Shown: positions 21,191 through 26,010 of the stretch, one piece after another
Layout: each line of letters starts with the position of its first letter
Position numbering within the stretch: position 1 is the stretch's first letter
Assembly (NCBI RefSeq): GCF_014274465.1
Contig: NZ_CP060394.1
Coordinates: 5,580,001-5,644,000, forward strand
Source of the DNA: Alloacidobacterium dinghuense
GTDB lineage: Bacteria > Acidobacteriota > Terriglobia > Terriglobales > Acidobacteriaceae
Direction of reading: 5' to 3'
Length of the DNA: 64,000 nt
The notes under the pieces: generated by a model
Told to the model about the DNA's origin: nothing
Database searches by the model: none
The model's input: the letters and a program-made list of their open reading frames with translations, nothing else
Position numbers and translations under genes: made by a program

Positions 21191-21239
21191 GAATGCACCA
21201 ATTAGATAGTTAGTGTAGCGCAACGGGATGGTTGATACT

Positions 21240-21543
21240 CCAGCGGCAGTCTGGGGTGTGGAGGTTGCCGTAGTTGCTTTGGTCAGCGAATTCGATCGCA
21301 TTCAGGAACGATTCTTCGTTAGGCTCGACCCGCACGCCGTCATAAATTGTGTAAGCGATGCCGTCTGCATCCAGCGATTCGATCACTACCTGGACAGGAT
21401 GCATGCGCCGGAGGATCGGATCTGTGATTACCAATGCATTGCGAATTCCGAGGTCCGCGAGGTCCATCCCAACTTCAAGTGTAACGCCAGCGCCGAACCG
21501 CACATTGGAGGCGGCCATTTTCAAAGGCGATTTCGTGAGTCAT
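21240..21543 (-). pseudogene. hydroxyacid-oxoacid transhydrogenase (Fe-ADH type), N-terminal fragment
   Basis: From ATG 21543 the product begins MTHEIAFE, then after a one-base shift (an extra A) continues ASNVRFGAGVTLEVGMDLAD and VRVEPNEESFLNAIEFA. This order matches the N-terminus of hydroxyacid-oxoacid transhydrogenases (ADHFE1-like iron alcohol dehydrogenases). Homology ends near 21250, before the GGGS nucleotide site and all metal ligands; full proteins have about 420 residues. A remnant of the same lost catabolic operon as the FAH fragment. Confidence 0.8.
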
Positions 21544-21692: not shown

Positions 21693-23564
21693 ATGTGGTT
21701 CGTGGAGAAAATTGAGATTACAGGTGGATTCCTTCCTGGCTTGTCGGTCCAACTTCCTCAGGGCCTCACGTGCATCATTGGGCCACGCGGCAGTGGAAAA
21801 TCAACGCTAGCTGAAGCACTAAGGTTCGCAGTCTGTGGCCTGTCGGCTGCCCCAAAGCATTGCGTCGACCTCGTCCAGGCGAATCTCGCCGGCGGAGCTC
21901 TTGTAACGATCACAGCCTTAGCCGAAGACGTGGGCCGATACACGATTAGAAGGGGGCTTAAACAACAGCCGGTTCTACTCGCACCGGGAGGAAGGACGAT
22001 TGACTCAGTTGATATCGATCGAGGCACGTTCTTGCCGCTGGATGCCTATAGTAGTCCTGAGATTGAAGCTATTGCCGACGAGGTTCTCGGTCAGAAGCGT
22101 AGAACACTTTTAGACGAGCTTCGTAGCGAACAGATGCATACAATTCACCTGTCATTGGCCGAGAGTGCACGGGCGTTGGATGCGAACGCGGATCTTATTC
22201 GGTCAACACAACGTTCGATTCAGGATCTCACCGAACAAGCTGAGGAACTCGGAGATGTGCGTGCGCGCTTAAACGCTCTCCCGCCGTCCGAACATGAGTC
22301 GACGGCAGAGTTTGTCCGAGTTTCGCGTCAGCAGCAGCTCAATCAACGTGAAACCAGCAAACTCGACGCTTTCGATCGAGAGCTTGGATCGCTCGATCAA
22401 GGCATTGAGCAGATGAAAAAGAAAACTCAGTTTGTGTTCAAAGCTCGTCTTGCGGAGGAGCATTCTGCCAATGCGGATATCCTTCGCCGATACGACAACC
22501 TGCTAGCAGCGACCTTGGATCGCATCGAAGACCACTTCTCAACGATCAGCACTCAGATTCGTGAGGCACAGAAGACGATAGCGAAGGCAAGAGATGGTAT
22601 CACCAAAGCCCACTCGGATCATGCCAGCGAGTTGGCGAGATTGACCGCCCTCAACCAGGCGGCAAGTGAGCAAGCACGAACACGAGCAACACTCGAACAG
22701 CAGCTCGCCAAACTTCAATCCGTGGAGGAGCAGCGTTCGGAACTGAATATAGAGTTGAAGACTCTCTTGGATCTACGCAAGTCGCTTAAAGCGAAGCACA
22801 TCCTCATGCGAGATCAAATTTCCGGCATACGCGAGGAGGTTGCTTCCGAACTCCAGCGTGAAGCCGGCAAACGTGTACGCATCCGAATTATGCGGAATGC
22901 CGACCATCTGGCATACCAGCAGATGCTGGTGGATGGGTTACGCGGTGCGCGGGTTCGGAACCACGAGGAGATCATCTCCACACTCATGCAGCTAAGGCCG
23001 GAACAACTTGCCCAGCTCATCCAAACTGACGACGTGGAGTCGCTCGAGGAGCTTACGGCCTTCGGTCGTGAGCGTTCTCGCAAGATCCTCGATGCATTCA
23101 GGGAGAGCGTCGACCCGCTTGCCCTTGAGGTAATCGCGATCGAAGACAGAGTTGGGATCGAGTTAAATGTTTCATCCGCCGGAAAAGCGAATTTCAAAGA
23201 CGCGTCCGATCTTTCCCGTGGTCAAAAATGCACAGCCCTGCTACCGATTCTCTTAGCAAGAAGAGATAGCCCTCTGGTCATTGATCAGCCAGAGGACAAT
23301 CTCGACAACCACTTTATTTTTGAAACCGTAGTAAACGCGGTCCAACGGCTGAAGAAGCGTCGACAGATGATCTTCATCACCCATAATGCGAACATCCCAG
23401 TATTAGCAGAGGCAGATCTTGTGCTGGTTATGAATTCAGATGGCCGCATTGGAGTGATCGAGAGATCCGGCAGTGTGGATGAATGCCGCGAGCAGATCAT
23501 CGAGCTGCTCGAAGGTGGAAGGAGAGCGTTCGAACTTCGCTCGAAGCGCTATGAAACCGCGTGA
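21693..23564 (+). CDS. SMC/RecN-like AAA ATPase with central coiled coil
   Basis: The 623-residue protein has a Walker A motif GPRGSGKST (30-38), a long coiled-coil centre (about residues 145-400), and a C-terminal half-domain with the signature DLSRGQKC (about 506-513), Walker B VIDQPEDNLDN (Asp531) and the switch FITHNANIPV. The QPEDNLDN/THNANI pair is typical of the ATPase part of TrlF-type and related SMC-like proteins, but no PHP nuclease domain is present. It overlaps the next gene, a SpoIIE-type phosphatase, by 14 bases, so the two are translated together. A DNA- or stress-sensing role is inferred. Confidence 0.85.
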   Translation: MWFVEKIEITGGFLPGLSVQLPQGLTCIIGPRGSGKSTLAEALRFAVCGLSAAPKHCVDLVQANLAGGALVTITALAEDVGRYTIRRGLKQQPVLLAPGGRTIDSVDIDRGTFLPLDAYSSPEIEAIADEVLGQKRRTLLDELRSEQMHTIHLSLAESARALDANADLIRSTQRSIQDLTEQAEELGDVRARLNALPPSEHESTAEFVRVSRQQQLNQRETSKLDAFDRELGSLDQGIEQMKKKTQFVFKARLAEEHSANADILRRYDNLLAATLDRIEDHFSTISTQIREAQKTIAKARDGITKAHSDHASELARLTALNQAASEQARTRATLEQQLAKLQSVEEQRSELNIELKTLLDLRKSLKAKHILMRDQISGIREEVASELQREAGKRVRIRIMRNADHLAYQQMLVDGLRGARVRNHEEIISTLMQLRPEQLAQLIQTDDVESLEELTAFGRERSRKILDAFRESVDPLALEVIAIEDRVGIELNVSSAGKANFKDASDLSRGQKCTALLPILLARRDSPLVIDQPEDNLDNHFIFETVVNAVQRLKKRRQMIFITHNANIPVLAEADLVLVMNSDGRIGVIERSGSVDECREQIIELLEGGRRAFELRSKRYETA

Positions 23565-24660
23565 GATTCTCTATGAGAAGCTTCGGCACCTCGTAGTGGA
23601 GGACCCACGTGAGGCCCGCAGGCTCTTTCACCAACTCCTGGATTCCGGTGGTCCAGCGCTCGACCAGTTTCTTGGGTCCATCTCCTCTCCTTCAGACGGT
23701 CGCTTGCGGCAGCTTGTCGCAAATGCACCGAGGAACCATCGCGATAGGGAGCGCCTCATCCCGCATCTCATTGCATGGCAGGAAAGTGAGACAGACGAGT
23801 TCACGCAACGCGCTATCTCGCACACTCTCGATGCTCTTGACGTACGATCAAACGCGCAGACGGCTTTGGCGCTGGAGGTCGCGCGCTTGACGACCTCCAT
23901 CGGACGGGAGATGGCACAGCGTGAACGGCTGAATCGAGAGTTGGAAATTGCACAGGAGGTGCAGGCGCATCTCTTTCCCCAATATCTTCCGCCGGTAGCA
24001 GCTCTGGACTACTGTGGCCAATGCCGGCCGGCGCGAGAAATAGGCGGTGACTACTATGACTTTCTCGAACTGCCCGAAGGTAGACTCGGAATTGCCATTG
24101 GCGACGTCTCCGGCAAAGGTATTGGTGCTGCGCTTTTGATGGCAAGTCTCGAGGCTTCTCTGCGTGCTCAAGCAGCAGTAAGACATGAGCTGGTCGATTT
24201 GATAAAGCAAGTCAGTCGGCTCGTATGTGAGGCCTCCTCGACGAACCGCTATGCGACGCTGTTCTATGCCGAATACGATCCTCGATCTCTGCAACTCTCC
24301 TACGTCAATGCAGGTCACAATCCACCTATTGTTCTCAGGCATTCTGCTACGGCGTGCGAGGTTATGCGGTTGGAGACTGGTGGTCCAGTAGTCGGACTCT
24401 TACGGCACAGCTATCAGCAAGGAGGCTTCCTGCTTCGGACAGGAGATCAGATTGTACTTTTCACTGATGGTATTTCTGAGTCTATGAATGTTCACGACGA
24501 GGAATGGGGCGAGAACCGCTTGATCGAATGCGTTAAGAATTGTCGTGGACTGTCCGCCCATGAGACGATAGCCAGGATTCTTGCCGCCACGGACGCTTTC
24601 TCCGCCGGCGCCTCCCAGCACGATGACATGACATTGGTTGTCTTGCGCGTCTTAGTCTGA
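23551..24660 (+). CDS. PP2C/SpoIIE-type (RsbU-like) serine phosphatase with helical N-terminal domain
   Basis: The ATG at 23551 gives 369 residues. An N-terminal helical region of about 110 residues (LRHLVVEDPREARRLFHQLL, HEAT-like in feel) is followed by a linker helix REMAQRERLNRELEIAQEVQ, typical before RsbU phosphatases. The PP2C domain follows with GGDYYDF (Asp167), GDVSGKG (Asp185), YVNAGHNPP and FTDGISE, ending in HDDMTLVVL. Metal-binding aspartates are in place. RsbU-type enzymes dephosphorylate anti-anti-sigma or similar proteins. The 14-base overlap with the ATPase gene indicates a joint function. No STAS or kinase gene is nearby; an IS element follows 25 bp later. Confidence 0.88.
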   Translation: MKPREILYEKLRHLVVEDPREARRLFHQLLDSGGPALDQFLGSISSPSDGRLRQLVANAPRNHRDRERLIPHLIAWQESETDEFTQRAISHTLDALDVRSNAQTALALEVARLTTSIGREMAQRERLNRELEIAQEVQAHLFPQYLPPVAALDYCGQCRPAREIGGDYYDFLELPEGRLGIAIGDVSGKGIGAALLMASLEASLRAQAAVRHELVDLIKQVSRLVCEASSTNRYATLFYAEYDPRSLQLSYVNAGHNPPIVLRHSATACEVMRLETGGPVVGLLRHSYQQGGFLLRTGDQIVLFTDGISESMNVHDEEWGENRLIECVKNCRGLSAHETIARILAATDAFSAGASQHDDMTLVVLRVLV

Positions 24661-24685
24661 CAAGGTTGCCGTGGAAAGCCAAGAC

Positions 24686-25484
24686 GGCATTGTCAACTTG
24701 CGCACGAAACCTGGAACACTGATGCCATGAAGAGTGACTGCGTTCGATACTCCGGTTATCGTTTCCCTTCCCAGATCATCAGCTATGCGGTGTGGGCTTA
24801 TCATCGCTTCTGCCTGAGTTTCCGGGATGTCGAAGATCTTCTCGCCGAGCGCGGCATCATCGTATCCTATGAAACCATCCGGCAGTGGTGTGAGAAGTTC
24901 GGTCTCGACTATGCTCGGCGATTGAAGCGACGAGAGGGACGGCTGGGCGACCACTGGCACTTGGATGAAGTCTTCATTCGAATCAACGGCCAACAGCGGT
25001 ATTGGTGGCGCGCCGTGGATCAGGACGGTGACGTGATCGACATTCTGGTCCAGCCGCATCGTGATCAGCGCGCCGCAGAGCGATTCTTTCGAAAACTCTT
25101 GCGTGGCCAGGGTTCTGAACCACTACAGATCATTACCGACAAATTGAGAAGATACTCCGCTGCCGTGCGAAGCATCTTCAGCAACGTGACTCACTGTGTG
25201 GAGCGGTACGCCAACAATCGCGTCGAAGCCTCGCATCAGCCGACGCGCCAACGGGAACGGCAAATGCGCCGATTCAAATCTGCCAGGCACGCACAACGTT
25301 TTCTCTCCCTCCATGATGCCGTCCGAAATCTGTTCCGAGTGGGCCGACACTTATTGAGGTCTAGCAATCACCGGCTCCTGCGATCGCGGTCATTCGCGGT
25401 CTGGCGGGAAGTGACCGCGGCCTAAGCGAGCGCAAGACCCGCAGCAGCTCAGAATGTCCCTCAACGTCTTAAGTTGACAATGCC
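24686..25484 (+). mobile_element. IS6 family insertion sequence, intact
   Basis: A 799 bp element is bounded by perfect 14-bp inverted repeats GGCATTGTCAACTT (24686-24699, and inverted at 25471-25484). It contains one transposase gene. Size and terminal sequence fit the IS6 family. The 8 bases flanking each side differ (GCCAAGAC versus GTAACACG), so no target duplication is seen. This suggests recombination or deletion beside the element after insertion. Confidence 0.85.
24727..25425 (+). CDS. IS6 family DDE transposase
   Basis: The 232-residue transposase has the usual N-terminal helix-turn-helix region (SYETIRQWCEKFGLDYARRL) and the DDE triad: Asp80 in WHLDEVF, Asp138 in ITDKLRRY and Glu167 in NNRVEASHQ, with the typical HQPTRQRERQMRRFKS tail. 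The length is normal for IS6 members and no frame damage is seen, so the element may still be active. IS6 elements move replicatively through cointegrates. Confidence 0.93.
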   Translation: MKSDCVRYSGYRFPSQIISYAVWAYHRFCLSFRDVEDLLAERGIIVSYETIRQWCEKFGLDYARRLKRREGRLGDHWHLDEVFIRINGQQRYWWRAVDQDGDVIDILVQPHRDQRAAERFFRKLLRGQGSEPLQIITDKLRRYSAAVRSIFSNVTHCVERYANNRVEASHQPTRQRERQMRRFKSARHAQRFLSLHDAVRNLFRVGRHLLRSSNHRLLRSRSFAVWREVTAA

Positions 25485-26010
25485 GTAACACGATCCCCAT
25501 ATTGCATGCCAATGAAATCGAGATCAGCGGTGATGTTGGCGGCGCCCTTCAGTCCAGCCGGGTCTGCGGTCGAACCGGCGCGCAGAGTGAGGTGGGCGCT
25601 GACAAGCGGCACTTCGTGTTTTTCAAGAAGCAGTACAGTGAGTCCATTAGGAGAGGAGACGCGCTTATACGCAGGCAATTCGAATGGACTCGGCGTTGTC
25701 CAAGTTGAACCGGTTCCACAGTGCGAACAGGCGGAGGTGGATCGTGTGCCGGTATGGGCGCGAAGTATTTATCAGCGAGTGCGAAAACATCAGCCGCCTT
25801 GACGCCGCCTACGACAATGACCGTTGCATTGGTGGGCGAATACGCTAGCAAAGGCACTGGCTCCGGCACCTTCACGGGCACCATGGCGTTCGATCCTAAG
25901 GCGTATGGGATGAACAGCGCATCCCGTTTATCAAGATTGCAAATCGAGTCGAGGTAACTGTCTTCCTCAAGGGCAAGCGAGTCAGCGCCCCTCCGCCGGC
26001 GTTCAAACAA
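25485..26010 (-). pseudogene. M16 family (pitrilysin-like) zinc protease, fragments
   Basis: Two minus-strand frames contain pieces of M16 peptidase chains. The upstream piece has ATVIVVGGVKAADVFALADK and YFAPIPAHDPPPPVRTVEP, typical of the end of an M16 domain. The next has AYKRVSSPNGLTVLLLEKHE and LTLRAGSTADPAGLKGAANI, typical of the start of a second M16 domain. Their order fits a two-domain or tandem arrangement. A frame change lies near 25680, there is an internal deletion, and the IS6 end at 25484 cuts the coding sequence. The HxxEH zinc motif is absent. Confidence 0.75.

Follow-up and report, generated by a model that had tools for sequence, protein, structure and literature searches.

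The window, the whole stretch of 64,000 nucleotides of Alloacidobacterium dinghuense DNA analysed here, contains two overlapping genes on the forward strand. The first encodes a PHP-less TrlF-type ATPase of 623 aa with a predicted SMC/Rad50-type head (21693..23564, +), and the second a SpoIIE/RsbU-type phosphatase of 369 aa with a chimeric sequence (23551..24660, +). Both are full open reading frames and the two genes are intact, as the first-pass annotation had stated. The start of the phosphatase is most likely the ATG at 23551 rather than an upstream GTG at 23473, and the homologous partners share this start position in three of four orthologues. Because this ATG is taken as the start, the genes overlap by 14 nt (23551..23564, +), which reproduces the overlap described earlier. 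The 14-nt overlap recurs in relatives of the locus, both phosphatase-type (L026, L028 and L031) and kinase-type (L029 and L030), and it measures 29 nt in the phosphatase-type locus L027. The neighbouring genes are decayed, again in agreement with the first reading: the pair is closely preceded by a truncated iron-containing alcohol dehydrogenase (104 aa; 21210-21524, reverse strand), and a fragment of an M16 peptidase lies downstream. In between, an IS6/IS240 element (24684-25486), whose 16-nt inverted repeats are perfect and whose transposase frame is open, begins 24 nt past the phosphatase stop and adjoins the M16 fragment. The loss of a third gene to this element was considered and rejected, as the four orthologues resemble the window no further than the stop codon of the phosphatase and the element downstream has complete 16-nt inverted repeats.

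The ATPase, of which the host genome carries one copy, matches the TrlF model NF045780 (TrlF_fam_ATP) with an E-value of 4.3e-87, covering model positions 290-944 of 944. Positions 1-289, the N-terminal PHP part, have no counterpart, which bears out the earlier remark that this SMC-like ATPase lacks the PHP nuclease, and the score of 293.8 bits lies below the curated cut-off of 350. The protein contains a Walker A motif, GPRGSGKS (21780..21803, +), with G30, R32, G33, G35 and K36 invariant in two alignments; an ABC signature, LSRGQ, followed by a Walker B motif, LVIDQPED (23211..23297, +; invariant L507, S508, G510, Q511 and D531-D535); and an H-loop, THNANIPVL (23379..23405, +; invariant H564, N565, N567, P569, V570 and L571). 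The columns of these four motifs are conserved in the alignment with 26 relatives. A coiled-coil insert of long helices is predicted from the AF2 secondary structure at residues 145-391 (22125..22865, +). The AF2 model has a pLDDT of 86 and its best PDB matches are SMC/Rad50 heads with Z about 20-22, among them Smc 5xns (Z 21.9, rmsd 5.2, 348 residues aligned) and Rad50 3qkt (Z 20.6, rmsd 4.3, 297 residues aligned). As modelled, the protein is an SMC/Rad50-type ABC head with a coiled-coil insert between the Walker A motif and the signature, a fold which suggests that it may sense DNA or nucleotides.

The phosphatase is built of an N-terminal helical adaptor domain (residues 1-97; 23551..23841, +), a long linker helix (residues 101-140; 23851..23970, +) and a SpoIIE/PP2C catalytic domain defined by Pfam (residues 175-367; 24073..24651, +; PF07228, E 4.9e-47). 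The motifs GDVSGKG, FTDG and HDDMT, together with GGDYYDF just upstream of the Pfam domain, are present in all five phosphatase orthologues. In the AF2 model, which has an overall pLDDT of 64, the adaptor forms six helices with pLDDT values mostly of 82-91, and the linker helix comes next. The PP2C part has an RsbU/SpoIIE-like fold and matches the RsbU of Rv1364c (3ke6; Z 16.9, rmsd 3.5, 204 residues) and SpoIIE (5ucg; Z 15.7, rmsd 3.5, 197 residues). The first-pass annotation had called the helical N-terminal domain unusual, and it is so in a precise sense: this six-helix adaptor is otherwise found in histidine kinases, those of the sister operons described below. For the adaptor profile, the best PDB match covers 22 residues of a designed protein, and the fold search with the whole protein hardly reached this part of the phosphatase; the adaptor is therefore described no more finely than as HEAT-like helix pairs.

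An alignment of PHP-less ATPases, used to search 84,980 species genomes for relatives, returned 80 loci (designated L); all 26 relatives sampled match NF045780. The gene downstream of the ATPase encodes a kinase in 58 of the 80, a large APH-kinase-like protein in nine and a phosphatase in four, so that 71 have one of these partners directly after the ATPase. Among the nine loci with no detected partner are three full-length proteins of TrlF size and loci truncated where their contig ends. The common layout is a PHP-less ATPase, a cytosolic histidine kinase, usually overlapping or a few bases apart, and a response regulator. Some regulators have an APH/TCAD9 kinase-like domain; others have a shorter region at the C-terminus without a Pfam match, which, read by eye, may be a winged helix. 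This ATPase-kinase-regulator operon is widespread across many phyla (L021, L022, L023, L024, L025, L029, L032-L072 and others), on chromosomes and conjugative plasmids and often among defence genes. It is found in three genomes of the window's own family and on plasmids of Klebsiella, Rhodococcus, Shinella, Phaeobacter and Caballeronia. At another locus in a genome of that family, L116 (L116:5799-8356), the kinase and a receiver-APH gene form a pair that has lost both its ATPase and the beginning of the adaptor. A two-gene variant has neither a kinase nor a receiver gene (L073, L075, L078, L080, L083, L087, L089, L093 and L101); there, a protein of ~600 aa directly follows the ATPase, with a TCAD9/APH domain in L078, the one tested.

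The ATPase-phosphatase pair is also present in the metagenome genomes of four acidobacteria (L026, L027, L028 and L031), whose ATPases are 73-81% identical to that of the window. The known phosphatase-type loci thus number five, all acidobacterial and four of them from metagenome assemblies. Nucleotide similarity between the window and the four orthologues covers the two genes and nothing outside, and the flanking genes vary between the five loci. Both genes have dN/dS values of about 0.04-0.13, which are rough, with dS near saturation for several pairs. On sequence grounds, this recurrence in four other genomes under purifying selection is beyond chance, and the co-occurrence raised in the first-pass annotation extends past this strain. 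Given the recurrence, the purifying selection and the similarity limited to the two genes, the pair is a maintained two-gene unit and appears to move as one. Linkage to a sporulation or sigma-factor pathway, which the first-pass annotation had named as a finding that would count against it, was not seen: no STAS, anti-sigma or sigma genes occur near the five loci among the first 25 of the 41 Pfam families found in 30 flanking proteins. Alternatively, the pair could be what is left of a decaying three-gene system, its phosphatase being the non-functional product of a chance fusion; the decayed neighbours in the window and the losses at L116 would agree with this. We regard such decay as very improbable, as both genes are intact, the selection in the five loci is strong, with dN/dS well below 1, and the motifs and the overlap are conserved.

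The origin of the phosphatase can be traced on both sides of its linker. An N-terminal HMM made from the single window sequence (residues 1-130) finds the partners at L030 (Chthoniobacter; E 2e-25) and L029 (Armatimonadetes; E 3e-7), both of the kinase type. The L030 partner is cut by the contig end, and its identity as a kinase comes from ~25 residues past the adaptor which resemble L116 and L029. Window residues 41-97 are 53% identical to the kinase of L116, and eight adaptor domains give a good alignment in which the motif ETDEF is invariant. Comparison of the adaptor with the N-termini of more distant kinases by hhalign (P 0.003-0.025) is suggestive of a relationship with these as well. 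The pair is rare: across 396 genomes of the phylum, the adaptor gave five matches by single-sequence search and four by profile; strong E-values were restricted to the window and G050, a genome of the same family, the other matches being weak (E about 1e-3 to 1e-4). On the C-terminal side, residues 102-369 are 52% identical to L121, a GAF-SpoIIE phosphatase encoded elsewhere in the same genome and the best among the other SpoIIE-type matches in the host. The GAF domain of L121 ends at residue 467-468 and the similarity to the window protein begins at 461; therefore, the fusion retained the last GAF helix as its linker, and the modelled helix 101-140 matches this last GAF helix of the donor-type phosphatase. 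The joint read from these alignments identifies the phosphatase as a fusion of a kinase adaptor with the linker helix and PP2C domain of a chromosomal phosphatase of the GAF-SpoIIE type. The phosphatase-type cassettes contain neither the kinase core nor the response-regulator gene. All five phosphatase loci cluster on one branch of the ATPase tree (SH-aLRT 99), nearest to L030 and L029, both kinase-type; the tree supports a single kinase-to-phosphatase replacement. The idea that the ATPase gates the phosphatase, put forward in the first-pass annotation, is strengthened by the fact that the helical domain of the phosphatase is that of the kinases beside sister ATPases; its architectural side is strongly supported, and the gating itself is a step that we infer.

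A role in defence had also been proposed, with enrichment in defence islands as one of the checks. In a PADLOC search (E 1e-15), 128 proteins flanking kinase- and APH-type relatives matched 105 families, versus 19 for 125 proteins from 20 arbitrary regions, a control of unmatched taxonomy in which families and not loci were counted and whose matches were mostly to one DpdF-like helicase and the promiscuous mad3 profile. The 128 proteins include TIR/CAP12 effectors (2 proteins), a CBASS cyclase, pAgo, BrxL, HmaC, type I restriction, a type II methylase and PD-T4-6; recombinases and integrases are also frequent beside these relatives, and AbiEii adjoins L004. JetA, a JetC-like SMC protein and two further genes, probably a Wadjet system, lie directly upstream of the ATPase-kinase relative at L030, on the opposite strand (L030:679-7452). 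Around the five phosphatase-type loci, PADLOC gave one non-specific, transporter-like match and no defence genes. The kinase-type relatives thus have flanks rich in defence genes, a defence-island setting was not found for the phosphatase-type loci, and the proposal that the pair itself is a defence system found no direct support. Overall, the family tends towards defence, and the phosphatase variant sits outside defence neighbourhoods. Membership of MADS was rejected too: a lone mad3 hit is no evidence of that system, because the profile (PADLOC-DB PDLC04135) matched 3 of the 125 arbitrary-region proteins at E 1e-15 or better, and no other mad genes were matched in the flanks of the five loci.

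These neighbourhoods bear on two alternative functions. The pair may be an anti-phage module resembling abortive infection: the ATPase would sense the DNA of a phage or intermediates of replication, and growth arrest would follow as the phosphatase alters the wiring of protein phosphorylation. The company kept by the kinase- and APH-type relatives, including the Wadjet JetA beside L030 and AbiEii beside L004, the excess of PADLOC families over random regions and the relationship of the ATPase to the anti-phage protein Ppl (E 3.4e-27) make this possible; we nevertheless lean against it, given the flanks of the five loci, the unmatched taxonomy of the control regions and the adaptor, which has no relatives in the viral contigs searched. 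The neutral neighbourhoods of the phosphatase-type loci are in keeping with a checkpoint for DNA damage or chromosome status, in which a Rad50-like ATPase reports host DNA breaks and the phosphatase tunes the general stress response. The SMC/Rad50-type fold and the closeness of the SpoIIE-type output to a host phosphatase are compatible with such a checkpoint, but it is unlikely: the very sporadic distribution and the mobile-cassette boundaries better suit an accessory system, and no linked repair system was seen.

The explanation that we favour, with a confidence slightly above even, is that the pair is a signalling cassette in which an SMC/Rad50-type ATPase sensor gates a dedicated phosphatase through the adaptor, leading to a stress or dormancy response. 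The cytosolic ATPase would be the sensor and the phosphatase its dedicated output, with the adaptor docking on the ATPase. The head fold points to DNA or DNA ends as the most likely ligand, whose binding would change the nucleotide or dimer state of the ATPase. This movement would pass through the adaptor and the linker helix, so that two phosphatase domains pair and become active in the way that RsbT activates RsbU. Once switched on, the phosphatase would dephosphorylate a serine/threonine protein encoded elsewhere, most plausibly a host STAS anti-anti-sigma protein, and the cell would answer foreign or damaged DNA with protective stress measures or dormancy. The host genome has 11 STAS-domain matches, and these proteins could supply substrates in trans. 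Coiled-coil linkers let common sensor domains drive either phosphatases or histidine kinases (Baral et al., PMC12143880), and the window protein fits this logic because it joins a kinase-derived adaptor, a linker helix and a PP2C domain. Against this signalling cassette stand the small number of phosphatase-type loci, the absence of any STAS or sigma-factor gene among the first 25 of the 41 families in their flanks, their location away from defence islands, the short stretch that identifies the L030 partner as a kinase and the no more than suggestive link of the adaptor to more distant kinases.

Several known systems resemble parts of the pair. TrlF (NF045780) aligns end to end over positions 290-944, through the head, the coiled coil and the DQPED/THN motifs, but the window ATPase has no PHP part, scores below the cut-off and has a separate signalling protein as its output. 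Ppl (NF042955) and the Spaf_1101 family share a homologous ATPase region; however, the window ATPase reaches 94.8 bits against a curated cut-off of 1000 for Ppl and falls far below that of Spaf_1101, and both are single large proteins, whereas the partner in the window is encoded by a separate gene. Detocs is a phage-defence two-component system in which a cytosolic histidine kinase is paired with receiver-effector proteins. The kinase-type relatives have such a kinase and receiver-effector proteins too, but their operons are headed by an SMC-like ATPase and their output is an APH/TCAD9 protein or a receiver protein with a Pfam-unmatched C-terminus; the window pair has neither histidine kinase nor receiver, and PADLOC gave no Detocs match. 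Wadjet, Lamassu and other SMC-like defence ATPases have SMC/Rad50-like heads, with weak PADLOC matches to LmuB, but here the ATPase is short and the partners are signalling enzymes, not nucleases or kleisins. With RsbU and SpoIIE, the phosphatase shares the PP2C domain, the linker helix, the fold and the proposed activation through a coiled-coil linker (PMC12143880); it differs in its kinase-type adaptor, in its presumed activator, an SMC-like ATPase, and in the lack of linked STAS, anti-sigma or sigma genes among the first 25 of the 41 families. Neither the pair nor the ATPase-kinase-regulator operons were found described in the full-text literature, a broad survey of ABC ATPases lying outside the scope of that search. 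The parts are known; their combination and the swap of output appear to be new.

More broadly, and more tentatively, a little short of an even chance, the window may hold one naturally rewired example of ATPase-headed signalling operons that form a broad family not described before, in which an SMC/Rad50-type sensor has outputs exchangeable through a dedicated adaptor: a kinase to a receiver, a kinase to a receiver-APH kinase, an APH kinase alone or a PP2C phosphatase. The ATPase-kinase-regulator type probably matters more than the pair in the window. SMC/Rad50-like surveillance ATPases have so far been tied mostly to nucleases, and the pair joins them to phosphorylation signalling, two fields that are usually apart; if the broader reading is true, the window ATPase would be the first of the SMC-like surveillance type known to have a serine/threonine phosphatase as its signalling output. 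The clean joint, with one adaptor placed before either a kinase or a phosphatase core, makes the idea of a modular toolkit testable. If the kinase-type operons defend against phages, as their surroundings suggest, the phosphatase version would be an immune sensor re-plumbed into a stress response.
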